A stretch of DNA of 64,000 nucleotides, from the NCBI GenBank assembly GCA_933822405.4, contig CAKOGP040002091.1, positions 305,889 through 369,888 on the forward strand, in the 5' to 3' direction. Position numbers and translations under genes: made by a program. The DNA is from Cylindrotheca closterium. Its lineage: Eukaryota > Bacillariophyta > Bacillariophyceae > Bacillariales > Bacillariaceae. Positions 1,509 to 56,984 of the stretch are shown piece by piece. Position 1 is the stretch's first letter; every line of letters starts with the position of its first letter. The notes beneath the pieces were generated by a model. The model saw only the letters and a list, made by a program, of their open reading frames with translations. It was not told the DNA's origin and searched no databases.

Positions 1509-1516
1509 TATATATA
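1509..1516 (+). promoter_or_regulatory. TATA-like box upstream of permuted tRNA gene
   Basis: An alternating TA run sits about 30 bp upstream of the first tRNA base. Upstream TATA-like elements are common at tRNA genes in plants and algae. Here it could help Pol III, because the internal A and B boxes are in inverted order. Assignment is by position only. Confidence 0.45.
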
Positions 1517-1545
1517 GCCATTTTCTAGTACAAGCATTCGTCGAT

Positions 1546-1622
1546 ATCAGAAGATTCCGGGTTCGAATCCCGGGCGGGCTTCTACTGGCCCGTTGGCCCA
1601 ACGGTAAGGCGTCTGACTACGA
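1546..1622 (+). tRNA. Circularly permuted tRNA-Arg (anticodon ACG)
   Basis: The 3' half of a tRNA (1546-1581) lies directly upstream of its 5' half (1587-1622), separated by about 5 nt. 3' half: anticodon-stem strand TCAGA (1547-1551), variable loop AGATT, T arm CCGGG-TTCGAAT-CCCGG (1557-1573), acceptor strand GCGGGCT (1574-1580). 5' half: acceptor strand GGCCCGT (1587-1593), T8 and G9, D stem GCC/GGC (1596-1598, 1608-1610), G26, anticodon-stem strand TCTGA (1612-1616), loop C-T-ACG-A. Acceptor strands pair over all 7 bp with a G.T wobble at each end; the anticodon stem pairs 5/5. B box (GGTTCGAATCC) and A box (TGGCCCAACGG) are canonical but in reversed order. No ordinary partner half flanks either side. 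The outer flanks can pair (1537-1541 with 1619-1623; 1533-1536 with 1628-1631), as needed for a splicing-endonuclease substrate. One oddity: the discriminator position reads T. Confidence 0.85.
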
Positions 1623-1624
1623 AC

Positions 1625-1628
1625 TTTT
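1625..1628 (+). terminator. Pol III T-run terminator
   Basis: Four T residues begin three bases after the 5' half of the permuted tRNA, and a second TTTT lies at 1649-1652. Either would end a Pol III transcript. The predicted flank pairing uses bases up to 1631, so the second run may be the functional one. Confidence 0.45.
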
Positions 1629-1938
1629 GCTCCATTCACTTTGCACACTTTTGTCCCTCTTGAAACTCTAAAGTACTGGTACTGGACGCATAGTAGGATA
1701 GCAATCCCCGCGCGAACACACGAGCGAATCTAGCATAAGTCGAAGCGGGTGTGTATTGAATCTTTGATGAATCTATCGTCGCACCCCTAAGTAATTACAA
1801 GAAAATGTGTACTGAATCTTTGATGAATCTAAGAAAAAAAAACCGATATTTCTCGCTTTTTCAGAACAACGGATGGTCCACCACAACAATCACAAAAATA
1901 TACTGTTTCTGACCTCCATGTCATATAGGAAGTGCACC

Positions 1939-7182: not shown

Positions 7183-10161
7183 CTACCGCCTTTGTTGTAG
7201 ACGACGTGCCCTCATCTCCACCAGCTGGAGCAATGCAAAGGCCAAAACACAAATGAGCAGAGTCTGGTGATCAAATATGTGCTCCATAATGACATCCTTC
7301 TTCCTCCTCATTTCCTGCTGGTGGTCGTGTCCAGGAACAGGCTCGCCAACGCCCTCGTCGGCTTGCTGCGGCCTGGGCACTGGTTCCTTGACGACTTGGT
7401 CGTCATCCATAGCATCACTTGGAACCTCCTCTTCTGGTTGTGGTTCGTTTTCGTCATCCAGCGTCGGTAGTTCATCATCCATTGGTTCGGTTCCGTACCA
7501 CCATGCGTTCCATGCATTGCGAAGTTTGACAATATTTTCATGTTGTGACATGGCCATCAAAGCAATTTGAACCGCCAGACTAGCTTCGGCTGCATGGTAG
7601 CTGGCAGCCAAATCGTAGTGTCTTTTCGCCAGAGGAAAGTCCTGCTTCAATCCAATTCCATACTCGTGCATGAAACCCAAATTAAAATTGGCCCGGGCAC
7701 TTTGATGTTTGTCGACAGCGATGGTGTAATAGTGGGCTGCCATGGACAAGTCGGCATCCTCCAACTCGTTCTCTTCCTCGAAAGTCTCGGGGCAGTCGTC
7801 GATCGTGCACTGGGGGGGTTCATTGCTTGGATCTTTTTCAAACGCAAAAATGTATTTCCATTCTCCACTCATTTGATACTCGGCCCACCATTCCAATCCT
7901 TGTTCGTACCATTTTTTCAGCAAGGGCAGGACATGCTTTTCTGGATACAGGACATACTGAACCCAACCAAATGGTCCCAGTGACCGATTCTTGCCTCGGA
8001 GTCTACCGTAGTAGTAAAAGTCGCCCAATCGCAAGCAAGCTTCGGCATTACCTCGGTCGGCAGCCGCCTTCCACAACCGCACCGATGCCTTGGCACAGTC
8101 CGCCATGCCCAATCCCAAGCAAACACCTTGCTCGAGCAAAAAGGCCGCATTCACTTGGCCTACATTGGATCCTCCTTCAGCAGCCGTCAAATAGTTTCGA
8201 AGAGAAGCTTCCAAGTTACCAGCCGCATACTCCTTGTAGGCCGTTCGTAATCGTTTGGATCGATCCACGGATCCATTGGAAATGATCCATTGGAAATGAG
8301 CTCTGGCCTTGACACAATCCTTTTTGACAATCGAGTACGAATCCAAGGCACTGGTTTGGATTTGAATTCCTTCGGTGTAAATCATGGCAAGTCGGTGTCT
8401 GGCTTGGATATGTCCCCTGGAAGCAGCTGTAGCGAGTAGAGTAACTGCTTCCTTGATATTGGTTTGACTCGGTCCTCGAAATTGTTTTTCGACAATCCGA
8501 CCCGAATGATGCAAGGCAAAGGCCGGCTTTTCCTTCTCGGTGGGTAGCTCCAACGGATTGGAAGACATGCCATCTTCCGGCAGGTCTTCATTTTCGGTTG
8601 GATAATTTTGAAACTGTGTCTTCCATCCCAACCACATCATGGCCAGGTTGTAATGGGCATCCGTATCTCCTGATTCCTTGGCCAAGGCCAAGAATTTCTC
8701 TGCCATGCCATAATCAATTTCCATGACTCCAGGAATCCCCAACAAATATAACAATCCCATTCCATTCAAGGCATGATGATCACACTCGTGGACTTGCTTT
8801 TCATCCTCCGACTTGCCCTTTTTCTTTTGCAAGACGGCCATTTCCCGTTTGCGATAACAGACGGCAAACGATCCGGGAGCCCCCAATTTGAAATACTTGA
8901 GCGCCTTTTTCGCATCCGGTTCGGTTCCCATACCCCAGAGATAAAAGGCCCCCGCTTGCCCTGCCGCCTCCCAGTGGTTATTGTTGGCGGCAATTTCGTA
9001 ATACTCCAAGGCCAGAGTCAAATTTTGTTGGACACCCCGAATCCCGAAATGATAAAAGTGTCCCAACGTAGCTGCCGCCGCGACATCAATCGTCGTTGGT
9101 TTCTTTTCATTACTATCCCTGTAGTACCAAGGTGTCGTCGTTGCCTTTAGGTGATAAAATTGAATGGCTTCTTTGGATTCGTCCGGCTTGTTGTTCCAAT
9201 CCAGTTGACTGGAGGTCCCACCGTGCATGTGGACCTGCGCCAAGACATGCTTGTCCATGTGCGGCAGCACCTTGGCCCGTGAATGTTCCGAAGATTCCAG
9301 TTGATCCATGATCCCATTCGCCGCGGCTTCCAAATAGGGCAAGGCTCCTGTGCATCCCAAACTATGATTGTCCGTCGCCTTTTTTTTGGTTCCATCAAAA
9401 TCCATCCGATGGGCCAAGGCCATGGCCGCTTCAATGTTGCCCGCCATGGCAGCCATGTGCCATAATAAGAAGGATTTCATGACTTGGGGATGATCTTGTT
9501 GCAACCATTCTTCCATGACTTGTAGTTTGGAATGAGGAGTTGTTGTCTCTTCTTGACTACTACTACTACTACTAGTAAAAGGCCAAATGCCCGACGCATG
9601 GGCATTGGCGAGATAGAATTGTGCCAATGGATGCCCATAGTCGGCGGACTTCTCCAATGCTAAATGAGGATATTGGGTGGCATTGGACTTTTCATAGTCC
9701 TTGGTCGGTGGAATCATTTCATCCCGGGTGGTGTAGTGGTGTGCATGGGTTTGCCTTTTGCTGGAACTGGTACTCAAAATGGCATCCCATTTCCTCAAAT
9801 ACGAAGCCGCCTGTTTCCAATAGGCTTCACCAAGAGTCTTGGTGGAATATCCTTGGACATATACTGATTCGGGTTGGGATTGGAGCGTAAAAATATCGCT
9901 CGCAGGTTCGGTGGACTGCACCGTGGAAGGTTGGGCTTCCAATGGTATTGCTGTGTTTGACGAGCCTGATGATGATAATATTGATGAATCACTGGATGGT
10001 TTACCACCGGATTGGTACTTTTGATGTCGTTTGGCTTGAATTAAAAGTTCTTGATTGACTTGAACTTGTAGCAACAAAACGAGTGTCCCCAACGCCAAGA
10101 CCAAAGAGCTGAGCACCAACAGCGCTGTGACTTTTGTGGTGGAAATGGAGTGGCCTGTCAT
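7183..10161 (-). CDS. SEL1L/HRD3-like Sel1-repeat membrane protein
   Basis: Single-exon gene of 992 residues. An N-terminal hydrophobic segment (about residues 11-32) acts as signal or anchor, and a second lies near the C-terminus (about 960-980) before a basic tail. Between them are many Sel1-type repeats, seen as A...LG..Y..G patterns such as GHFYHFGIRG, GLLYLLGIPG, GDFYYYGRL and GFMHEYGIGLKQD. The last repeat block, with LAKRHYDLAA, closely resembles the C-terminal Sel1 repeats of SEL1L/HRD3, the ER-membrane partner of the HRD1 ubiquitin ligase that recruits misfolded glycoproteins for degradation. The long Asp/Glu/Pro-rich linker before the last helix is unusual. ERAD role follows from family resemblance; the Sel1 repeats are certain. 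Confidence 0.8.
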   Translation of the reverse strand: MTGHSISTTKVTALLVLSSLVLALGTLVLLLQVQVNQELLIQAKRHQKYQSGGKPSSDSSILSSSGSSNTAIPLEAQPSTVQSTEPASDIFTLQSQPESVYVQGYSTKTLGEAYWKQAASYLRKWDAILSTSSSKRQTHAHHYTTRDEMIPPTKDYEKSNATQYPHLALEKSADYGHPLAQFYLANAHASGIWPFTSSSSSSQEETTTPHSKLQVMEEWLQQDHPQVMKSFLLWHMAAMAGNIEAAMALAHRMDFDGTKKKATDNHSLGCTGALPYLEAAANGIMDQLESSEHSRAKVLPHMDKHVLAQVHMHGGTSSQLDWNNKPDESKEAIQFYHLKATTTPWYYRDSNEKKPTTIDVAAAATLGHFYHFGIRGVQQNLTLALEYYEIAANNNHWEAAGQAGAFYLWGMGTEPDAKKALKYFKLGAPGSFAVCYRKREMAVLQKKKGKSEDEKQVHECDHHALNGMGLLYLLGIPGVMEIDYGMAEKFLALAKESGDTDAHYNLAMMWLGWKTQFQNYPTENEDLPEDGMSSNPLELPTEKEKPAFALHHSGRIVEKQFRGPSQTNIKEAVTLLATAASRGHIQARHRLAMIYTEGIQIQTSALDSYSIVKKDCVKARAHFQWIISNGSVDRSKRLRTAYKEYAAGNLEASLRNYLTAAEGGSNVGQVNAAFLLEQGVCLGLGMADCAKASVRLWKAAADRGNAEACLRLGDFYYYGRLRGKNRSLGPFGWVQYVLYPEKHVLPLLKKWYEQGLEWWAEYQMSGEWKYIFAFEKDPSNEPPQCTIDDCPETFEEENELEDADLSMAAHYYTIAVDKHQSARANFNLGFMHEYGIGLKQDFPLAKRHYDLAASYHAAEASLAVQIALMAMSQHENIVKLRNAWNAWWYGTEPMDDELPTLDDENEPQPEEEVPSDAMDDDQVVKEPVPRPQQADEGVGEPVPGHDHQQEMRRKKDVIMEHIFDHQTLLICVLAFALLQLVEMRARRLQQRR

Positions 10162-23438: not shown

Positions 23439-26253
23439 ATGCCCCATACAATGGGAGCAATACTGTGGCTCTGCCAATGGTGCATTTTCATGATGGCATC
23501 CACAGCCATAGCACAGCCTGCAGTTGTTGACATGGAGAAGGCTTCCCTCAACATCTCGTTTCAAACCGAAGCGGCGGTGACAAAGGGGAATCAGATTCCC
23601 TTGAACGAGTCTTGCACTGCTTATATAAGGGATATCATGGCTAATGTAGGTCGAGCAGATTTGCAGTGTTCAACACCATCGGGGATGGTGTATTCGATAC
23701 CGGGTGTAAACAAGGATTGGATCGAGGAGAAACAACGGAACCATGAGCTTATAAGTGGATACACGCAAATGGACCTTCCTCCCACTACCATGATCGATGC
23801 TACGACACATGCGTTGATATTGGACTCTCCGCTGATATTACGAGACCCAGCAACTGGGACTGATTTGATTCGTCGGCGGAGGCTCTCAACTGCTGAAAAG
23901 GCTAGGGGAAAGAAAACAGTCCTTGTGGTTCGAGTGGAGGCTTCTGATAGTGCAACTACTCTTTCCGAGACCCAGCTTGCGAGTGATGTATTTGGTGATA
24001 ACGGGGATCCCAACAATCTACGATCTCAGTATCTTGCTTGTTCCTATGGAAAATTTGATTTGAACAAAGCTGAAAATCGAAATGGGCTGGACACGAATAT
24101 TCGAAACGGCGTAGTAACGGTGGAGGTACCAAATGTATCCAAATCAGTTGGTGATACTGCCATGCTGAACGCTATCAACAAGGAACTAGGGGATCAGTTC
24201 TCGACAGCAGCTTTCAATCTCGCTGACTTTGTGATATATTGCATGCCTCCTGGAGTTATGCACCCACTGGACGTTGCCTACGCTTTTATGGATGGTACGT
24301 GGCGGATGATTCAAAGGAAAATTGTCAGGACTATAGTGTCACCCTTCACTTACCTTCTGCTTTTCATTTCAGGATACAAGTCGATATACAATGACCAAGC
24401 TTGTAATCAAGTGTCAACTCAACTACACGAAGTGGGGTAAGCCATGTACAATGATTATTGTAGTCCTAGGCGGGAAACTGGGTAGTCAATTCTTTTCTCA
24501 CTTGTCTCTTGTTTGTTCCTTTGGTATCAGACACAACCTGAACATGGCCCATAGTGGAATGGGCGCAGACGAATATGCTGACAAGAGCGGGATGATGGGG
24601 TATTCGTTCGAATTAGACGACCTTCCGTACATGTGTTTCAAGTAAGTGGGCATCGTCTTGGTTCAATCTTCGAGTCTATATATGATAGGTTTAGCTAATG
24701 AAATGTCTCTCTTTTGGTTCTGTCTCTTCAGCGCTGCAAAAAGTTGGCAGCTTGGCTGGTACGCGGACAAGGCCCTTAGATTTACTCCTTCACCCACGGG
24801 CCAATACGAGTTTTCTGCCAAGTTGGCAGGGGTGGCTGACTACGCAACGACAGAGAACGATGTCGTGATCAAGATAGAACAGGAATTTTCTACTTGGGCA
24901 TACTTTGTCAACTACAACGCCGCGAAGGGTATCAATGCAGGTACTCAATATGGAAAGGATCGGGTGCTGGTAACCATGAAGGATACAAGTGACGAAGCAA
25001 ACACTTCAAAACTTGTAGCAAGACTGAGGGTTGGGCAGAATTTAAAGATCCGCAACTTTAATGGGAGAGCAGACGAAGAGTTGATTGTTGGATGGAAATC
25101 TCGTGTAGAGGATGTGGCTACACTTCGCATTTTCCTTCAGGGTCCAAACGTTCCAGAGCCAACACAGCCACCCTCAATTGCACCCTCCATCCTCCCGTCT
25201 TTTGCACCGACTCTACAAGCATCCCGGTTACCAACAATTCCACCCTCCATCAACCCGTCTTTTGCACCAACCCCACTGTCATCAGCAGGACCTACTTCTG
25301 CTCCCTCCATCAGCCCATCCTCTGCACCATCCATTGCATCATCAGCAGGACCTTCTTCTGTACCAACCATTGCATCGTCAGCAGGACCTTCATCGATACC
25401 GACACCGGTAGTCTCGGATCAGCCAACACTCTCACATCTTCCCACTTTGTCGCTGGTCCCATCCAAAGCACCGACAACCTCTGAAACACCCACAACAACG
25501 GATGTTCCAAGCCACAATCCTTCAACGTCTTTGATGCCTAGCGCTGGCCCGTCCAGTGCTCCTTCGCAGGCCCCGTCTCAAAGCCCCAGTTTGCTTCCTT
25601 CGCAGTCCCAATTGCCAAGTTCAAGTCCTTCGATGACGACCTCAGAAGTGCCTTCGTTTATGCCATCGGATCTTCCGAGCAGCGTGCCTTCTCGAAAGCC
25701 TTCTTCGGCACCTTCGATGAAACCATCTGTTCGATCGTCGGAGTTCGAATCAATGTTTGTATTACAGCTTCCCCGCGGCACAGACTTTGAAGTAGCAGCT
25801 AGTGTATGCGCCGGACTGCAATCCTATCTGGATGAAGTCACAAAGTCGACGTATGGCAACGAAACTGTGACGAGCATTTCTTGTCTTCCGATTGTTGAAG
25901 CCTTGGGCACGCAAAATGTCTTTGATCGTGGCGCAGATGTCACTGTGGTGATGACGAGTTCCTTTCCAATGGCCGCCATCGGTCCCAATGCAACGGAATT
26001 CGAATCGTATGTTGACGAAACTATTGGTTCTGGTGAAACAAGTTCACTTTTACCTGGAATAATCCTTGCATCAATAGAGGAAGCTGGACTGGAAGAAGGA
26101 TCCACTGTCAATTTGGAGTGGGACGATGAGACGTTTGACACTCCAGTGCTGAAGGTGGGATTTGAAGAAGAAGAATCATCATCATCCGGAATGCAAACCA
26201 CAATGCATCTGGTTTGTACATTATCATCTTTGTATCTATTATTTTTCTTGTAA
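23439..26253 (+). CDS. M11 gametolysin-like metalloprotease 1 with Pro-Ser stalk
   Basis: Exons 23439-24294, 24373-24436, 24531-24641 and 24732-26253 give 850 residues. The ATG at 23439 is used; the codon before it is TTG. A signal peptide (about residues 1-23) leads to a prodomain and an M11-type catalytic domain. Zinc ligands are in HEVGHNLNMAHSG (His304, His308, His314; Glu305 catalytic). Further conserved blocks are SDVFGD..DPNNLRSQYLACS, QACNQV, MMGYSF and CFNAAKSWQLGWYAD. A stalk of repeated P-S-x-x-P units follows (about 485-660), then a conserved ~150-residue domain and a hydrophobic C-terminal tail suited to a GPI or membrane anchor. Gametolysins of green algae digest Hyp-rich cell-wall glycoproteins; here a wall or mating role is inferred. 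First of three tandem paralogs. One intron lies inside the zinc motif. Confidence 0.9.
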
Positions 26254-26586
26254 ACTATTATCTTTACTCCACACACCAGCACCGGCATTGTAGCTCTAAC
26301 ACTTCAACTCTCATTTTTGTGTAATTGAGATGATAATAATTGGTACCAGGTACAAGTACCTGGTACCTGGTACGATTAGTATGGAGAGGCAAGACCTACT
26401 GTAGAGAAAAGACAGCCAGTCAGCCAAAATCCGGCGAAAAGTTTCCATTTCGGAAAGGTGATGGAAGAAATGTTTTCTCCGAAGAAATGACCGGGGATAA
26501 ATGTTTCTCTCTCCCAAGAGAAAATCACGAACTTCAAAAGATCACTCTGTAAACCTCAATCACAAATTTCTGAAACAACAACAACA
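26254..26586. other. Gap between peptidase genes 1 and 2
   Basis: Contains the 32-bp GGTACC inverted repeat at 26342-26373 and the promoter of peptidase 2. Around 26420-26530 GGAGAAAA and TTTCTCC-type motifs recur on both strands. No gene seen. Confidence 0.45.
26342..26373. repeat. GGTACC-AGGTAC inverted repeat
   Basis: Overlapping copies of GGTACC and CAGGTAC / GTACCTG face each other around a short centre, so the strand could fold into a hairpin. It lies 20-100 bp after the stop codon region of peptidase 1 and about 210 bp before the start of peptidase 2. Confidence 0.6.
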
Positions 26587-29500
26587 ATGCCGTCCAAGCC
26601 AACAGCAAAATGGCTCTGCCATTGGTGCCTTCTCATGCTGAGCGCCAGCGGACTAGCACAGCCTATCGACAATATACATGGAACTGATGACACGAGCTCT
26701 TCACAGCCAAATATATTCCAACGGCAAAAGACGATAGTTCAAGCCAAGAGAAGAATAGTGCTGGAGGAGCCTTGCACGGCAATGATTAGGGATATAATGG
26801 CAACTGCAGATCGGGCAGACTTGCAATGTGCGACGCCATCGGGGATGCTATATACGATACCTCAAGTCGACAAAACATGGATTGAAGAGAAGCAACTGAA
26901 TCATGAACTCATTAGTGGTGTTAGCCAAATCGATCTCCCCCCCAAAACACTAATCGACGTGGAAACACAGACGCTAGTACTGTATTCCGAACCAATCTTA
27001 CGAAACCCTACGTCTCGTGACTCCATTAGAGGTCCGCGGAAACTGGCAACTGCTGACAAAGCCAAAGGAACAAAAACAGTTCTAGTGGTTCGTGTGGAAG
27101 CTACTGATACTTCAACTTCACTGTCCGAGGCAGAGCTTGCAAGTGATGTATTCGGGGACGCGGGCGATCCTAACAATCTCCGATCCCAGTATCTTGCATG
27201 CTCGTATGACAAGTTTGAACTGACCAAAGCTTGGGGCAGAAGGGGGGTATCTACGAACATCGTGAACGGAATAACTACCGTTCAGGTTCCTCTGTCCAAG
27301 TCAGCAGGCGAGGCTGCGATACTGAATGCCATCAACTCGGAAATGACAACCCAATTCTCAACAAGAGTCTCGGATCTAGCAGACTTTGTGATGTTTTGTC
27401 TTCCTCCAGGCGTCATGCATCCAGATGACATTGCATATGGTAAGAACCAAAGATTATCAGCAAACTTGATTCGGAAACTTTTCTAATTTACTAGCACACT
27501 TGCTGAGAAAGCTCACATGAATGGATATCGATCTGTCTACAATGATGTTGCATGTCAGCAAGTTAGTACTCAACTTCATGAGATTGGCCACAATCTGAAC
27601 TTGAACCACAGCGGACGAGGGAATTCTGAGTACGGAGACAAGAGCTGCATGGTAAATTGCTAGCATCACGATGTTCCCCAGTTTGCGGTCTTAAATGCTC
27701 CATCTAACATCTGTTCCTTTTCAGATGGGCTTCTCATACGACAAGGACGATATTCCATACATGTGTTTCAAGTAAGTGACGTGGTGCTATTGCCAACCTT
27801 GCGCTTCCCGCCTCCTGGCTGACACATTATGTGCTCTGATTTCGTTCTATCAGCGCCGCAAAGAGCTGGCAACTTGGATGGTATAGCGACAAAGCTTTTG
27901 CCGTGAAGCCTACACCTAGCGACAAGCATGACTTTACAGTTGAGTTGAATGGTATTGTAGACTATGGAGTCACAAACAAGCACGTTCTTATCAAGATTGA
28001 GCAGGAGCAATCTACCTGGGCGTACTTTATTAATTACAATCTTGCCAAGGGTATGAATAGGAGTACTCAACTGGGAAAAGACAGAGTGCTTGTAACGTTG
28101 AAAGACACCAGCGATGAGGGAAACACCTCCAATCTTATCGCCGAATTGAAGCTGGATCAGAAGCTCACGATCCGCAACTTCAATGGAAGAGCTGGAGAAG
28201 AATTGTCTGTTGAATGGAAATCAATCACGAATGATGTAGCCATAATCTTCATCGGATTGACTGCACCGTCCATTACGCAGTCACCCACCACCACCCCTTC
28301 AACCAGCCCTACTCTGGAACCTTCTCTGCTACTGTCACAAGCACCTTCAACTGCTCCCTCTCTCAGTCCTACTCTGGAACATTCTCTGCTGCCATCACAA
28401 ACACCTTCGACTGCGCGCTCTCTCAGTCCAAGCCTGGAACCAACTCTTTTGCCTTCAAAAGCACCTTCAATTTCGCCCTCTCTTAGCCCAAGCCTGGAAC
28501 CAACTCTTTTGCCTTCACAGACGCCTTCCCTGTCACCATCAATTGATCCCAGCATGGAACCCTCCCCTGTGCCTTCATTGTTGCCATCATTCATGCCATC
28601 TGATCTTCCAAGCACGGTGCCATCTCAAAAGCCTTCCTTGCTGCCAACAGAGGTAGACTCGACAGCACCGACACTGTCAGAAGAGCCAAGTGTTTCGAGT
28701 GCCCCATCCCCTGCCCCATCGCACTCGGACGAACCAACCGTCTCTGCAGTTCCAAGCCAGACGCCCTCCATTTCCCCCTCTTCCACACCTACCAAGACAC
28801 CATCCACCGCCCCCTCACTCAAGCCATCACAGAGTCCGAGTCTGGGTCCATCTCAAAGCCCTTCAAGGGTCCCAAGTTTAGATCCATCTCAAAGCCCTTC
28901 AATGTTTCCCAGCTTGGATCCATCATTAAGCCCGTCGCATAGTCCCAGCTTGGACCCGTCTCCAAGTCCATCGCAGGGTCCCAGTCTGGATCCATCTCAA
29001 AGCCCTTCAAATGTTCCCACCCTCAAACCTTCGCAACACCCATTTCAAGGTCCATCTCCCTCCTCCGTGCCCTCGACAAGACCACTATTGAGCGAAACTG
29101 GTAGTCCCACCGTCAACCCAACTCAAGCTACTTCCGAGGTGCCTTCATCTTCTCCAACCTTCATTGCGTTGGAGCTGCAAACTACAATGAAGCTACAAAT
29201 CCCAGGGGGCATTCACTCCAGCACGATTCTACAAATGTGTGACGAAGTGGAATCGCATTTGGATGCGAACATGAAATTGATATATGGACCTGAGGTACAG
29301 ACTTCTGTGGAGTGTCGCCCCGACGACCCAGAGCCGCAAGCCGCGATCGACGGAAGCAACCGAAACGACCGGAGTGAAAACATCTTCGACCATATTGGTG
29401 GGCCTGACATCTTTGATTTTGGTGGACTTGGGGGTGATGGTGGTGACAGTGACGTGGATGGTGAAGTTGGACGTTCAATGACGGTCAATGTTGTAGCGAC

Positions 29501-29738
29501 AACTTTCTTCCCACAGAGGTCTGTTGCTCCTTTCCAAGCAGATTTCGACACTTACATCTTCAACAGTATTGCCACCGATAAATTGAATGTCCTTCCTCAA
29601 GGATTCAAGATGGAGTCAGACGATTCGACATACCCTCCAGTACTTCGTTTGGCAATCTCGACAGGAACACAGGCATCGATGAGTCTTGGATGTATAATCT
29701 GCTCATCTCTCACTTTGCTAATCCTTCTTGTAAATTAA
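26587..29738 (+). CDS. M11 gametolysin-like metalloprotease 2 with Pro-Ser stalk
   Basis: Exons 26587-27439, 27512-27651, 27725-27771 and 27854-29738 give 974 residues. It has the same plan as its upstream neighbour: signal peptide, prodomain, catalytic domain with HEIGHNLNLNHSG (His307, His311, His317), CFNAAKSWQLGWY block, long P-S-rich stalk, conserved domain and hydrophobic tail (CIICSSLTLLILLVN). The catalytic domains of genes 1 and 2 are close over their whole length, so they are recent duplicates. Intron positions differ: this gene lacks the intron inside the zinc motif but has one after DKSCM. The stalk is longer than in gene 1 and made of near-identical SPSLDPSQSPS-like units. An Asp/Gly-rich insert (near 29390-29470) breaks the distal domain. 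Confidence 0.9.
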
Positions 29739-29988
29739 TATTTTAAAATAGACTTAGATTTGACCATATCAAAAGATTTGGTTTTACTCCCACGCAAGTT
29801 CCGTGTTTAGACTCCAAACATGTCATCAAAATTCTTTGGCTACGAGCAAGGAAATTGTGAGGAAGTGATCTTGCGACACGACCCATCTGCACGCGTGTCG
29901 AGTCCAAATTGACAAAAACGGAGACTGGATTCTAACTTTGTCATGAGAAAAGTGAATTTAAAAAATTAAATACTCACCTTGATCAACA

Positions 29989-32900
29989 ATGAGGAATATA
30001 TTAGCATGGAAGAGGATCTACATACTATCAATACTAAGCATTTTTCAAACCACTATTGCAGCGCCAATAGATGCACGTAACCAGACGCTATCCGAGCCTT
30101 GTACCGCTATGGTGGAACGAATTGATGCCGACGAAGACACTGCGGTTCTCCTTTGTTTGACACCGAGTGGCAAGGATTATATTATTTCCTCAGTCGATGC
30201 TGAGTGGATAGAAGCGAAAACATCATCAAATGAACTTTACAGCGGATTGACGATATTGGATCTTCCTGACAATTCGTTGATCAACCTAGAAACTCAGACC
30301 ATAGAACTCGAAGCGCCGCCAGTGTTGGTCAACAATGAGAGTACGATAAGGCACCGAGGTCGCAAACTTACCGCTGTAATAGGTGTAAAGACTATACTGG
30401 CGGTTAGAGTAATAGCAGCGAACGCAGAAACATCCCCGTCCGAAGCGCAATTAGCCAGCGATATATTTGGTGGCGATGGCCTCGATTTTGTGAATGTGAG
30501 ATCGCAATACTTGGCATGTTCTCACGGAAAGCTTGATTTTCAGAAAGCAACCGGCAGGAGCGGGTTATCCACGAGCATTTATAATGGTGTTGTTACAGTA
30601 CAAGTGGATAAAGCGACATCCGTTGGTGCCAGAAATATGGTGAATGCGGTCAACGACGAGCTGACGCGACAGTTCAACACTCATCCCTCGAATCTGGCAT
30701 CATATGTCATGTACTTTTTGCCTGCTGGAACCTTCGGAGGCTTTGCTTATGGTAAGTGTTTACCTGTTCCTAGCTTTGTTCTCTTGTGTGCGTCCAGAGG
30801 CTCACTCAATTTCTACTCTCAATCAAAGCTTACATGAATGGTTATCGGTCGATTTTCAACGACCGTTTCGCATATGCGGTCTCGATTCAAATGCACGAAC
30901 TAGGACACAACTTGGGATTAGGTGCGTCATTTAAATAGGAACGTTCTTGTTTTTTATGGGAGCTTCATCTAAATCGATTCATCATACTTCAGGGCACTCG
31001 GGGCATGGCGGTGACAAATACGGAGACCAAAGTGGACTAGTGAGTACCCCTTCGTATTTCGAGCAAAAGCATGATTTTGTTGGCTTACATTACCTTTTTT
31101 TTAAAGATGGGATACTCCTACGGAAACGACGAAGCACCAAAAATGTGTTTCAATGCGGCGAAAAGTTGGCAACTGGGATGGTACGCTGACAAGACCGGAA
31201 GTGCCACACCATCGGGCAAGTTCCAGTTCGCTGGGCGACTAGGAAGCATCGTTGACTATCCGACAACGAATACACGCGTCCTAATTGAAATCAAGGAGAG
31301 TACTTCTGAATGGGCGTACTACTTGAACTATAATGCGGCAAAGGGATTCAATATTGGGACGGCTGAAGGACGAAATAGTGTACTTATAACAAAGAAGCAC
31401 ACTGGTAGTCCAGGGCACCAGTCCCTCTTGCTCTCAATACTGCAGAATGGCGGTAGTTACAGTATACCGGACTTTAATGGTAAGCCGGGCGAGACTTTGA
31501 AAGTGGAAGTTCATGCGATGACAGCGGATGAAGCGTACATTTCTGTCAAGTTGGATGGGTCGCCCACCCGAGCACCTTCTTCCTCGCCTTCCAATAGCCC
31601 TTCGAAGGCGCCATCAGGTAAGTTTGACGTCCTACGACCGAATCCGGCTCATATGATTAAATGCTGACACTTTTCCTCCAGTGAACCCTAGTATTCAACC
31701 GTCAGTGATGCCGTCAGCGGAAAAGTCATTGGAACCATCGAGTCATCCCTCGCTACTTCCATCGAATGATCCATCGCATGAGCCGTCTGGGGTTCCTTCA
31801 GATGAGCCGACCTTGGCGTTCTCGCAACGTCCAACATCTTCACCTTCAACCGGACCTACAAGAATTCCATCGAAATCGCCCTCATCAATCCCATCATCTT
31901 CACCGTCAACCAGACCTACAAGAATTCCATCTAAATCGCCCTCATCAATCCCATCTCGCAGCTCAAGCGCGGAGCCAAGCTCTTCACCAACTTTCGAGCC
32001 GACCTTGGTATTCTCGCAACATCCAACATCTTCACCGTCAATCAGACCTACAAGAATTCCATCTAAATCGCCCTCATCAATCCCATCTCGCGGCCCAAGC
32101 GCGGAGCCAAGCTCTTCACCAACTTTCGAGCCGACCTTAGTGTTCTCGCAACATCCAACATCTTCACCGTCAATCAGACCTACAAGAATTCCATCTAAAT
32201 CGCCCTCATCAATCCCATCTCGCAGCCCAAGCGCGGAGCCAAGCTCTTCACCAACTTTCGAGCCGACCTTGGTGTTCTCGCAACATCCAACATCTTCACC
32301 GTCAATCAGAGCTACAAGAATTCCATCTAAATCACCCTCTTCAATCCCATCTTGCAGCCCAAGTGTCAAGCCAAGTTCTTCACCAACTTTCGAGCCTTCC
32401 CAACGTTCATCTGGGCAACCAAGTATGGAGCCGTCGTTGCAGCCTTCGAGTAAACCGACACCAATCCATTCATCAAGTCCTTCGATTACTCCTTCTGGAA
32501 ATCCAACCCCAATGCCGTCCCAATTGCCTTTCGCATCGCCAACAGTAAGCCCTTCTGCGAAACCGAGCATAATTCCTTCCAACAATCCTACGACATTGCA
32601 TTCCGAAGGGCCTAGTCAAAGCATTGAGCCTACGATTACTCCATCGCAGATACCAACAGCCATACCATCTTGGAGTCCTTCTCTTTCAGTGAAACCGTCG
32701 TCAGGACCAACAATGGTTCCATCTATCCACCCCAGCATACGCCCTTCCATTGGCCCTACTGCTAGTACGATGCCAAGCCATGAGCCTTCCACATCGCCAT
32801 CTGTGAGCTTTGAGCCGAGCGTCAGTCCATCGGACCGACCGAGTAGCAGCGCGAGACCAAGTGCTAGACCGACTTCATCACCGAGTGCGATATCCCAAAG

Positions 32901-34392
32901 TCCATCAATGTCGCCATCTACCTTCCCAATGAATATGCCAAGCAGCGCACCATCACTGCTACCTACCGCAAAACCTTCGATGAAGCCGTCAGTGACTCCA
33001 TCGCAAATGGCATCAATAACACCAACCGACACGATTGCTCCTTCGAATTTGCCAACAGCAAAGCCTACACCTTCTCCATCCGTTGCACCGACCATGAAGC
33101 CGACAAAGAACCCCTCGAGGCGGCCAACACAGCAGCCGAGTAATTTGCCAACTGTGGAGCACTCCGTTCCTCCAACATCACAGCCATCAAGCGGGCCGAC
33201 GCTGCTGTCAAGTACTGTTCCAACACACAGACCGTCGCCACAGCCATCTCAGTTTCCATCTTTGCGACCCACAAAAAGTCCATCGATCGCACCTTCAGCA
33301 TCTCCGTCAGCTCCGACACCCTCTTCTCAACCATCGAAAAATCCCACCGAGAGACCGTCTGCCGTGCCAACATCGTCACCATCTCGAAGCCCTTCCAGAG
33401 CTCCATCAAACGGTCCAACAATTGCTCCATCAGAGAATCCATCTTCTCAATTCCTCGTGGAACCGGTGCCTCTTTCGACGGCGACGCCTTCAGCTGCACC
33501 TACAACTACACCTTCAGCTGACCCAACATCACGTCCAACAAAGACTCCAACAAATGCTCCAACATCCAGCCCATCCAATGCTCCGACTTCTTCTCGTGCG
33601 ACTCCGTCAACATCACCATCCCTTCGACCAACATCACACAATTCCGAAAGCGATGGTTCATCACCTACGGCTTCACCAGTCAGCAAAGTCTCATCCATGA
33701 CACCAAGTGTCGTTCCATCATCTGTACCTTCTTCAAGTACAACCCCATCATCCGTACCAACTATGATTATGGACTTCGGAGACGACTTTGTCATACTATC
33801 AGTAACATATTCCATGGAAATTTCCAGTGAGTTAAACACCACGGAGGAATATTTGGAGGCGGCATGCACAGTGCTTGGTTCCTACCTGAATGAGCAGACA
33901 GAGTCGACTTTCGAGGATGGTGTTCTGACAACATTTGATTGCAGCAGTTGGGATGGGAACACGGTTTCCGCCGCACAAAGTAATCGATCAGTGGATGTGT
34001 TGGATGTACTTTATGCTGAGGCGATAGTCACGTCATTTTTTCCACTTTATTCACCGACTGTACCAGACGACAGTGCATATGAGGGATTGTTGAATGAGAT
34101 GGTCCATGCGATGAGCCACGACGAATCTCTACTGCAAGTTCTATCGTCAGCAGGAGCATCATTGACGCTGTATTCCGACGATGGTTCCAATTCAAGACAA
34201 ACAATTCTGGAGATTGAGCACCAAGAAGAAGAAGAAGAAGAAGAGTCCTTGTATGTGTCTGAAGCTAACGAGGAGCAAGAACAAGAACAAGCAGAGGACT
34301 CTCATACGTCCTTCTCATCGTCATCAAGAACAAACACTTTGTTGTTGATACCTGTCATTTCAGCAATTCTGCTAAATATTATTCTGCTGTAA
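29989..34392 (+). CDS. M11 gametolysin-like metalloprotease 3 with very long stalk
   Basis: Exons 29989-30751, 30829-30921, 30993-31039, 31107-31617 and 31682-34392 give 1374 residues. It is the most divergent of the three. After the signal peptide and prodomain the zinc motif reads HELGHNLGLGHSG (His277, His281, His287), closest to the classical gametolysin form. The Cys-containing segment before the zinc helix in genes 1 and 2 is replaced by FAYA. An intron splits the last ligand region; there is no intron in the CFNAAKSW block, but one occurs at the start of the stalk. The stalk spans ~700 residues of P-S-x-x-P units, including three exact-period 132-bp repeats. A conserved distal domain (VTSFFP motif) and a Glu-rich spacer precede the hydrophobic C-terminus. 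Confidence 0.9.
31996..32391 (+). repeat. 132-bp tandem repeat coding for stalk
   Basis: Three consecutive units of exactly 132 bp (44 codons), starting at 31996, 32128 and 32260, each beginning GAGCCGACCTT and containing FSQHPTSSPS and RIPSKSPSSIPS. A partial older unit precedes at about 31804. Units differ at only a few bases, so the expansion is recent and the reading frame is kept. Confidence 0.9.
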
Positions 34393-55175: not shown

Positions 55176-56984
55176 ATGAGTTTAGGTCAAACCATCAAGC
55201 ATGGCATCGGGCGCCTCACAGCCAGTGCTGATACCCAAGTGACGAGACTCACCAAAGTCAGCCACAAGGCTCCGACTCGACTCTTGCCCATTCGAAAGAC
55301 CAGCATTGAAAAGGCGGGAGCCGCCGTGTGTGCCTTGAGTAATTATGGGGGTGGCATGTTGCAAGGAGATGCGTCTGATTTATTTATCAATGTCGAGAAA
55401 CAAGCAAGATTGGGAGTGACCACACAAGGAGTTAGTCGAATTTATTCGCAACGATTGTCCAACGAATGTCAAGCCAATTTGCAGGCCACCGTCGACAAGG
55501 ATGCGCTGTTGGTGTATGCTCCCGATCCCTGTTCTCTCTTTGCGGCATCTTCCTTTTCGCAAAAACAAGACTTTTCCATTCACCCGGATTCCTCCGTGGT
55601 CCTAGTGGATTGGTTTTCGTCCGGTCGATACCGAAACGGGGAGCACTGGGCCTTTGACAAGCTGTCGTCTCGTACCTCTTTGAAATGGTTGGGAGAAGAA
55701 TCCTCCCCGCCATTCTTGCAAGATTCTGTCACCATGGATCTTCGCATCAAGCAGACCAATCCATCTGAAAAGGACCCATTGGGAGTTTACAACTTTCATA
55801 CCTTTGCCTCGTTGATTCTCTATGGCAAAGAGACGGAAGAAATCAAGAAGCAGTGTGAAATGCTCCAAGATAGTTTTGCTTCCGAAACGACACGAATTCG
55901 AGCACGAGACTCGGTACAACTGTTGGAGAAGGACTTGAGGCTATCAGGTCAAGTCTGCATGGGATTGAGCAAGGTCGAATTGCCCGGCAAGGAACATGAT
56001 GCCCACGTCATTCGGTTGGCCGCCACGACCAATGAAGATTTGTATCGAGTCTTTCATCATTGTCTCTTGCCATTACACGAAAAATTTGGAATGGAATTCT
56101 ACAAGGACCGCATCAGCGCCAATCAGTCGCAAATCGACAAGATGCAAAAGACGGATCAAGGTTCGGGAGCCTCTGTTCGACCGACCAAGTACGCAGTCCG
56201 AGACGATCCAACAGAAGGCAATTCCTTATTTGACGAATCCATGGAGAATGTGGGGAACGGGTACTGGTCAGCCTTTATGCTTGCAGATTCCAGCATGCCC
56301 ACGGGGAGTTTTGCTCATTCATCTGGATTGGAAGCTGCTGAACAACTTGGTTTCGTCAAGGACGAAGACGATTTGCAAACCTTTGTTCAAGCTGCAACTC
56401 GGTCCACCATGCAAGTCATGACTCCATTTCTAATCACTGGACACAGACTGGCTTTGGAAGATATTGTGGACCATGAAGTGTATGCCGCCAAATGGAAGGA
56501 ATTGGATCAACAAATGCAGGCTGTCTTGAATTCAAATGCTCCTGCTTGTGCGGCATCCTTGGATCAAGGAAAATCCTTGTTGCGAGTCGCCAAACATTGG
56601 ATTGGTCAAGGCAACAACAGTACCATTCTGAGCCTGAAGACCTTGGGTGGTGGGCAGTGCCATCATATTGCACCGATCATGGGATCACTTGGTGCTCATT
56701 TGGGTATCTCTGAAGTTCAAGTCTGCCGTTTGTTTGGATACTGTGTGGCAAGAGACATTGTCTCGGCAGCCGTCAGATTGTCCTTGGTGGGTCCCTTGGC
56801 CAGTGTTCCACTCTTGCATCGAGTTCAAGGAGCAGCCGAAGATGGTTATCGGGCTAGTTTGTTGGCCATGGCTCAGAGTGTTGACGGCCAAAATCCATTG
56901 GTGTCCGCGGCAGGAAGTTCACCCATCGTCGATGCGATTCATCCGTCCCATGACGTTTTGCAAGTCCGATTGTTTCGATCATAG
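55176..56984 (+). CDS. UreD-UreF fusion, urease accessory protein
   Basis: Single exon, 602 residues. The N-terminal half (about 30-310) is UreD/UreH-like: NYGGGMLQGDASDLFINVE is the conserved GGxxxGD segment, then a beta-sandwich with GVTTQGVSRIY and DSSVVLVDWFSSGR. The C-terminal half (about 360-590) is UreF-like: LADSSMPTGSFAHSSGLEAA is the classical motif, with KTLGGGQCHHIAPIMGSLG and YCVARDIVSAAVRLSLVGP. In bacteria and plants these are separate proteins that join UreG to place nickel in urease. The fusion fixes the UreD:UreF ratio. No signal peptide, so cytosolic. A Gln/Lys/Ser linker (about 318-350) joins the two halves. No introns. Confidence 0.93.
   Translation: MSLGQTIKHGIGRLTASADTQVTRLTKVSHKAPTRLLPIRKTSIEKAGAAVCALSNYGGGMLQGDASDLFINVEKQARLGVTTQGVSRIYSQRLSNECQANLQATVDKDALLVYAPDPCSLFAASSFSQKQDFSIHPDSSVVLVDWFSSGRYRNGEHWAFDKLSSRTSLKWLGEESSPPFLQDSVTMDLRIKQTNPSEKDPLGVYNFHTFASLILYGKETEEIKKQCEMLQDSFASETTRIRARDSVQLLEKDLRLSGQVCMGLSKVELPGKEHDAHVIRLAATTNEDLYRVFHHCLLPLHEKFGMEFYKDRISANQSQIDKMQKTDQGSGASVRPTKYAVRDDPTEGNSLFDESMENVGNGYWSAFMLADSSMPTGSFAHSSGLEAAEQLGFVKDEDDLQTFVQAATRSTMQVMTPFLITGHRLALEDIVDHEVYAAKWKELDQQMQAVLNSNAPACAASLDQGKSLLRVAKHWIGQGNNSTILSLKTLGGGQCHHIAPIMGSLGAHLGISEVQVCRLFGYCVARDIVSAAVRLSLVGPLASVPLLHRVQGAAEDGYRASLLAMAQSVDGQNPLVSAAGSSPIVDAIHPSHDVLQVRLFRS

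Follow-up and report, generated by a model that had tools for sequence, protein, structure and literature searches.

Organisation of the permuted locus

The window, that is the whole stretch of 64,000 nucleotides that was analysed, belongs to the pennate diatom Cylindrotheca closterium (assembly GCA_933822405.4, contig CAKOGP040002091.1), in keeping with the diatom-like genome that had been perceived from its letters. At positions 1546–1622 it carries the halves of a tRNA-Arg(ACG) in swapped order, with tRNA positions 38–73 placed first, followed by 5 nt and then by tRNA positions 1–37 (Table 1). A methionine aminopeptidase gene adjoins the locus, its product being 100% identical to a C. closterium protein with a C. 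fusiformis protein as the next hit, and a DUF6824 protein is also encoded in the window. Farther along, the ORFs at 23439–34392 are rich in Pro-Ser-x-x-Pro-Ser repeats and stand beside repeated secreted-looking ORFs that are similar by eye, perhaps constituting a tandem gene family, and a single ORF at 55176–56984 combines UreD and UreF domains as a fused urease accessory protein.

Table 1. Features of the permuted tRNA-Arg(ACG) locus in window coordinates
Feature	Positions	Strand	Remarks
TATA-like run TATATATA	1509–1516	+	−37 to −30 relative to the 3' half; likely Pol III promoter element
Leader	1533–1545	+	1537–1541 pairable with anticodon region 1619–1623; G1543 with C1617 (position 32)
3' half of tRNA-Arg(ACG), positions 38–73, B box	1546–1581	+	Discriminator T73 at 1581
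Linker (intervening sequence) CTACT between acceptor ends	1582–1586	+	CCA not encoded
5' half of tRNA-Arg(ACG), positions 1–37, A box	1587–1622	+	Anticodon ACG at 1619–1621
Trailer, with TTTT at 1625–1628 as likely Pol III terminator	1623–1631	+	1628–1631 pairable with 1533–1536

The rejoined tRNA-Arg(ACG) reads GGCCCGTTGGCCCAACGG(T/C)AAGG...GGGCTT. In the window copy the acceptor stem is formed by GGCCCGT (1587–1593) with GCGGGCT (1574–1580), giving seven pairs of which two are G.T (G1.T72 and T7.G66), and the anticodon stem by TCTGA (1612–1616) with TCAGA (1547–1551), giving five; the T arm (CCGGG-TTCGAAT-CCCGG, 1557–1573) is intact and the D stem has three pairs. The conserved tRNA positions T8, A15:T48, G18G19, T33 and the TTC of the T loop are all present. 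An earlier sequence-only reading of the window had described a 3' half lying 5 bp upstream of its 5' half, with these acceptor and anticodon pairings, intact T and D arms, A and B boxes in swapped order, a TATA run about 30 bp upstream and T runs downstream, and each of these elements was located in the sequence.

ARAGORN called no tRNA on the linear DNA of the window locus; it called tRNA-Arg(acg) on the rejoined halves, and likewise when the 77-nt stretch was given as circular. No Rfam family, YrlA (RF02553) included, matched the window at gathering scores.

Covariance models of permuted tRNA

For the covariance model R2, 12 other nuclear tRNAs of the genome were permuted by script and given random linkers, with no Arg(ACG) among them. 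The first scan with this model covered 49 sources, namely the window and 48 of 103 own-genome loci (216,316 bases, some overlapping), and returned three matches up to E 10, at 62.6, 62.5 and 60.2 bits, which are the permuted genes described below; the window copy accounts for the 62.6 bits (E 9e-18 in 216,316 bases). In the other 55 own-genome loci, which include ordinary tRNA genes, 83 matches up to E 0.01 were obtained, 10 of them overlapping readings of the three permuted genes at 60–63 bits and the rest at most 35.1 bits, falling at or beside linear tRNAs. The permuted-model search that had been suggested as a check thus sets all three copies apart from everything else in the loci scanned, the sources given to permuted models amounting to well under 1% of the assembly. 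A model that included Arg(ACG) gave 67–70 bits at the permuted genes. With another model, R1, 106 matches up to E 10 were obtained across 12 viral contigs and three own-genome stretches of contigs C7, C70 and C95, the best being 52.1 bits (viral contig L106) and the next 43.5; permuted models also respond to neighbouring or single linear tRNAs. Taken with the pairings and the ARAGORN call on the rejoined halves, the covariance model supports the identification of the locus as a circularly permuted tRNA-Arg(ACG).

Three copies and their divergence

When the rejoined tRNA was searched as DNA against the 47.6 Mb assembly, six half-matches were obtained at three places, and the two places beyond the window are further permuted copies on contig C550, minus strand (60666–60590 and 59427–59351), lying 1.2 kb apart. 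Short direct repeats of roughly 100 bases were observed in the C550 stretch between them (locus L015, minus strand, about 6080–5760). In all three copies the 3' half comes first, the junction is identical and the intervening sequence measures 5 bp, compared with 1–74 bp in known permuted genes. The 37/38 join rebuilds the anticodon loop CTACGAA in each copy, the sequence of both C550 copies also permitting a 36/37 join.

Across the three copies, 36 of the 36 columns of the 3' half and 35 of the 36 of the 5' half are identical, that is 71 of 72 tRNA positions overall, as against 0/5 in the linker (CTACT in the window, GCTAT and ATTCC in the C550 copies), 3/20 upstream and 1/20 downstream. BLAST of about 1.1–1.2 kb of flank per side, copy against copy, gave chance-level matches only (E 0.35 or more), the longer hits arising where the DNA between the C550 copies was compared with itself. 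Since the tRNA is nearly identical while linkers and flanks have diverged, the copies are old, not recent duplicates, and selection has preserved the mature tRNA sequence alone across all three.

This comparison led us to drop the reading of the locus as a chance product. Chance assembly of tRNA-like pieces, or an artefact of the assembly, is a practically negligible explanation in view of the E value obtained with the independent model R2 and of the fact that the three copies are spread over two contigs, of 783 kb and 163 kb, and have differing flanks. The same comparison bears on the reading that the three loci are unexpressed relics or retro-copies of tRNA rearrangements, such as remnants of tandem duplication, with a working ordinary tRNA-Arg(ACG) gene missed by the assembly or by the searches. 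The genome does contain a partial tandem duplication of the 3' part of a tRNA, Thr(TGT), at C2:258387–258421, the assembly is a draft and search sensitivity is limited, as the loci missed by the Rfam tRNA search (see below) illustrate. Relics would, however, be expected to drift, yet the tRNA positions have stayed together while linkers and flanks stand at background, and a recent burst of copying would have left the linkers alike; moreover, the one change falls at a base that is variable in diatom tRNA-Arg (PMC8975779). The decayed form of this reading was dropped on the three-copy comparison, and the relic explanation as a whole is considered quite unlikely.

Position 20 and the discriminator base

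The sole difference among the copies lies at position 20, T or C (U20, U20 and C20), and the two linear Arg(TCG) genes of the genome also differ solely at this position. According to a diatom arginyl-tRNA synthetase study, the nuclear tRNA-Arg of diatoms has U20 or C20, with U20 for C. closterium, and that of organelles A20; for two species its table lists A in addition to U or C, and its consensus derives from 33 nuclear diatom tRNA-Arg sequences (PMC8975779). The variation seen here matches that of diatom nuclear tRNA-Arg and fits a working cytosolic tRNA-Arg. It is speculation on our part that the ACG isoacceptor is among the diatom tRNA-Arg missed by standard scanning.

The G1.U72 wobble recurs in the linear genes for Arg(TCG) and Arg(CCT) of the genome. 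The discriminator T, which the sequence-only reading had singled out as unusual and in need of explanation, is indeed unlike the A73 of those linear genes; being the same in all three copies, U73 is taken as a property of the tRNA and not of decay.

Putative transcription signals and flank pairing

TATA-like elements lie at −37 in the window (TATATA), at −35 in C550:60666 (ATAAAA) and at −36 and −49 in C550:59427 (ATAAAA and TATAAA), the ATAAAA elements at −35/−36 on C550 not being strict TATA boxes. In the window, C550:60666 and C550:59427, runs of four or more T begin 3, 16 and 5 bases, respectively, beyond the 5' half. Upstream and downstream signals are therefore present in 3/3 copies, and the linker carries neither a TATA-like promoter nor a T-stretch signal. 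Of the linear nuclear tRNA genes, 35 were compared: 8 carry a TATA-like element between −50 and −22, and 33 a T run within 40 bases; the comparison of 3/3 permuted with 8/35 linear genes for the upstream element gives a Fisher value of 0.02 with a motif list that was partly chosen post hoc.

It had also been proposed that the flanks pair into a helix-bulge-helix around the anticodon. The pairs themselves are present in the window, with five Watson-Crick pairs at 1537–1541/1619–1623 and four pairs at 1533–1536/1628–1631, but they are not clearly better than those of shuffled flanks there. With flanks of 12, 20 and 30 nt, the pairing of all copies combined is modestly better than in shuffles, at p 0.012, 0.0017 and 0.046; most of this signal is carried by C550:59427, for which 5, 1 and 6 of 300 shuffles were as good. 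Taken by itself, the window copy does not reach significance (36, 31 and 79 of 300).

The minimum-energy fold of 1537–1625 comprises the anticodon stem, a 3-base bulge (1544–1546), the pair C1617-G1543, one mismatch and the pairs 1537–1541/1619–1623; it makes up 9% of the ensemble, and the centroid is without C1617-G1543. When the longer stretch 1530–1640 is folded, 1541–1543 pair with 1620–1622 instead. The anticodon-intron pair involves position 32, and the bulge-helix fold predicted for the window would be the shape expected for a splicing endonuclease cutting at 37/38. In the C550 leaders, GUAG is pairable with CUAC (32–35) across a 4-base bulge, a fold that is best for one C550 copy with 12-nt flanks only, both copies otherwise favouring other outer helices. 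The predicted motif thus varies among the copies, from a 3-nt bulge in the window to a 4-nt bulge or another outer helix on C550.

Search for a linear nuclear gene and codon demand

No linear nuclear tRNA-Arg(ACG) was found in the 572-contig draft assembly by DNA search at E<=10, a search that has no reach to divergent tRNAs and that matched at the permuted places only. A pattern for intronless tRNAs with the ACG anticodon gave 16 matches, compared with 17 in a backward-read control, and ARAGORN found tRNAs at one of these 16 loci only (L087, contig C70), with no nuclear tRNA-Arg(ACG) among them. L087 holds a linear tRNA-Arg(ACG) with a tRNA-Gln beside it, and it is read as plastid because C70 encodes Psb28, ribosomal protein S4 and a PheT-like protein. 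An intron-tolerant pattern gave 230 matches, below its backward-read control (484), and a linear nuclear Arg(ACG) is absent among the matches listed for it, which are part of the 230.

As positive controls, linear Arg(TCG) was recovered whole in both copies, and queries with 11 other linear tRNAs gave 31 matches, of which 29 were full length, one was a partial linear-gene alignment and one a half-copy; no permuted copy of those 11 queried tRNAs was seen in the assembly. The Rfam tRNA search supplied 63 scored tRNAs (the best 63 of 1908 candidates), 35 of which were taken as nuclear and the 28 on C7, C70 and C95 as organelle, organelle genes having been checked on C70 only; it missed three tRNA loci that the 11-tRNA query recovered.

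At C2:258387–258520 (minus strand, locus L062), the 3' part of a linear tRNA-Thr(TGT), together with the spacer downstream of it, is repeated in tandem behind the gene. Partial tRNA duplications of this type have been proposed to give rise to permuted genes.

The codon count covered 8,727 codons from 17 of 22 ORFs of the window (ORFs rather than gene models, with the five at 26587–34392 left out), and in it 101 of the 404 Arg codons are CGT or CGC. By standard wobble rules, UCG and CCG anticodons are unable to read CGU and CGC. As these codons are regularly used and no linear nuclear copy was found, the three permuted genes are probably the cell's source of cytosolic tRNA-Arg(ACG). The sequence-only reading had envisaged that complete ordinary genes elsewhere would speak for a rearranged relic; the searches made of this genome gave the opposite outcome, with two further intact permuted copies and the plastid gene on C70 as the one linear copy encountered.

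Putative processing machinery and proposed maturation

Two PF01974 matches, the catalytic domain of splicing endonucleases, were identified in the genome; one of the proteins matches an EndA-like protein in the PDB (E 0.0004), and the best PDB match of the other is Sen34, which is not significant (E 0.2). There is one PF09511 RNA ligase, related to T4 RNA ligase 1 (PDB E 4e-8), and the domain search of the genome gave no match to RtcB. From this domain evidence we infer that the PF01974 and PF09511 proteins may act on tRNA. The search for TFIIIC yielded a single marginal PF04182 match (22.1 bits); PF09734 was without a match, as was its control.

Overall, we hold with high confidence that the locus is a working nuclear circularly permuted tRNA-Arg(ACG) gene of type II (junction 37/38), one of three found in Cylindrotheca closterium, which would mature via a circular intermediate. 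This species contributes the gene anatomy, the three copies, the constraint on the mature sequence as against linker and flanks, the negative outcome of the searches for a linear nuclear copy, and the encoded endonuclease and ligase domains; all RNA steps are taken from Cyanidioschyzon and green algae. RNA polymerase III would transcribe leader, 3' half, 5-nt linker, 5' half and trailer, ending at the T run, and would probably be aided by the upstream TATA-like element because the internal boxes stand in swapped order. The transcript would fold into a cloverleaf with the linker closing the acceptor end, leader and trailer meeting at the anticodon stem. The tRNA-splicing endonuclease would then cleave both sides at 37/38, RNA ligase would seal the anticodon loop to give a circle, RNase P and tRNase Z would excise the linker, and CCA would be added.

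Relation to known permuted tRNA genes

In a review, 34 permuted genes are tabulated, from six algae and an archaeon (PMC3978253); Auxenochlorella and another nucleomorph were later added (PMC12636532, PMC4494063). The review agrees with the earlier statement that such genes are known from Cyanidioschyzon, green algae and an archaeon, diatoms being absent from its table (PMC3978253). Among the works that hold both 'permuted tRNA' and 'diatom', none describes permuted tRNA genes of a diatom in the text available. In the full-text literature covered, which contained few subscription papers and was without Maruyama 2010, a survey of photosynthetic eukaryotes, we found no permuted tRNA gene reported from a diatom or other stramenopile. 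We are therefore dealing with a known kind of gene in an apparently new lineage.

A close likeness is seen to type II of Cyanidioschyzon merolae, with the 3' half first, the junction at 37/38 and a short linker (7–31 bp in C. merolae), and also with an upstream TATA-like element, a downstream T run and no encoded CCA (PMC3978253). The C. merolae genes differ in serving other isoacceptors, the permuted Arg being CCT of type IV, and in having four junction types and introns; moreover, the circular intermediate and charging were shown in C. merolae (PMC3978253). In Ostreococcus and Micromonas, the 37/38 junction is shared by 18 of 19 prasinophyte genes, including an Arg (TCT, O. tauri) (PMC3978253). 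These and Auxenochlorella are green algae, with longer linkers of 11–64 bp in the review table (PMC3978253; PMC12636532), and unlike the green-algal cases the C. closterium isoacceptor was recovered solely in permuted form, from three gene copies. The permuted tRNA-Ser of the Bigelowiella natans nucleomorph shares both the 37/38 junction and a 5-bp linker, but chlorarachniophyte nucleomorphs are relict green-algal nuclei carrying a tRNA-Ser, whereas here the gene lies in the main nucleus of a stramenopile (PMC3978253, PMC4494063). Thermofilum pendens, as summarised in the review, also has permuted genes as the sole ones for their anticodons (Chan 2011 via PMC3978253), and differs in being an archaeon with a 59/60 junction, encoded CCA and introns (PMC3978253).

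On a further reading, the loci would yield a stable RNA, circular or tRNA-like, with a regulatory instead of a decoding role. YrlA Y RNAs (Rfam RF02553) carry a tRNA-like domain in permuted topology and mimic permuted tRNA in bacteria; they are bacterial or phage RNAs and we know of no decoding role for them. The topology shared with this family lends the regulatory reading some support, as does a weak YrlA match in a viral contig (37.5 bits, gathering score 69). The decoding features examined in the C. closterium copies are nevertheless all intact, with the CTACGAA loop, U8, G18G19, U33, A15:U48, TTC and a seven-pair acceptor stem, and no other nuclear CGU/CGC decoder was found by the DNA and pattern searches, which renders a purely regulatory role very unlikely indeed.

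The viral contig concerned (IMG/VR contig L106) holds two permuted-topology tRNA-like domains on its minus strand (7463–7541 and about 7647–7730), scoring 52.1 and 30.3 bits with R1, where ARAGORN calls no tRNA. It is the first of them that matches YrlA below the gathering score, and long flanking stretches look complementary by eye; both are probably phage-borne Y-RNA-like tRNA mimics. A viral-contig pattern for permuted relatives matched 12 contigs and was rejected, as 12/12 span two neighbouring linear tRNAs. A 27-base exact pattern was absent from the viral contigs, and a tRNA-Arg-specific gapped pattern from both viral and genome contigs.

Significance

Returning to the working permuted gene, its existence would mean that an arginine tRNA in use by the cell needs its RNA to be cut, circularised and cut again, and that the tRNA-splicing pathway is required even where no intron is present. 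A tentative extension, towards which we lean somewhat less than against, is that the ordinary nuclear tRNA-Arg(ACG) gene has been supplanted altogether by permuted genes here, and perhaps throughout the diatoms; all cytosolic CGU/CGC decoding would then depend on RNA circularisation, and the isoacceptor would be missed by standard tRNA scans across diatom genomes. The finding also serves as a warning that diatom tRNA sets obtained with standard scanners may miss real genes. A stramenopile nucleus with three permuted genes, apparently the sole source of an essential decoder, would extend the known range of such genes and, if true, would bear on the question of whether they originate repeatedly.
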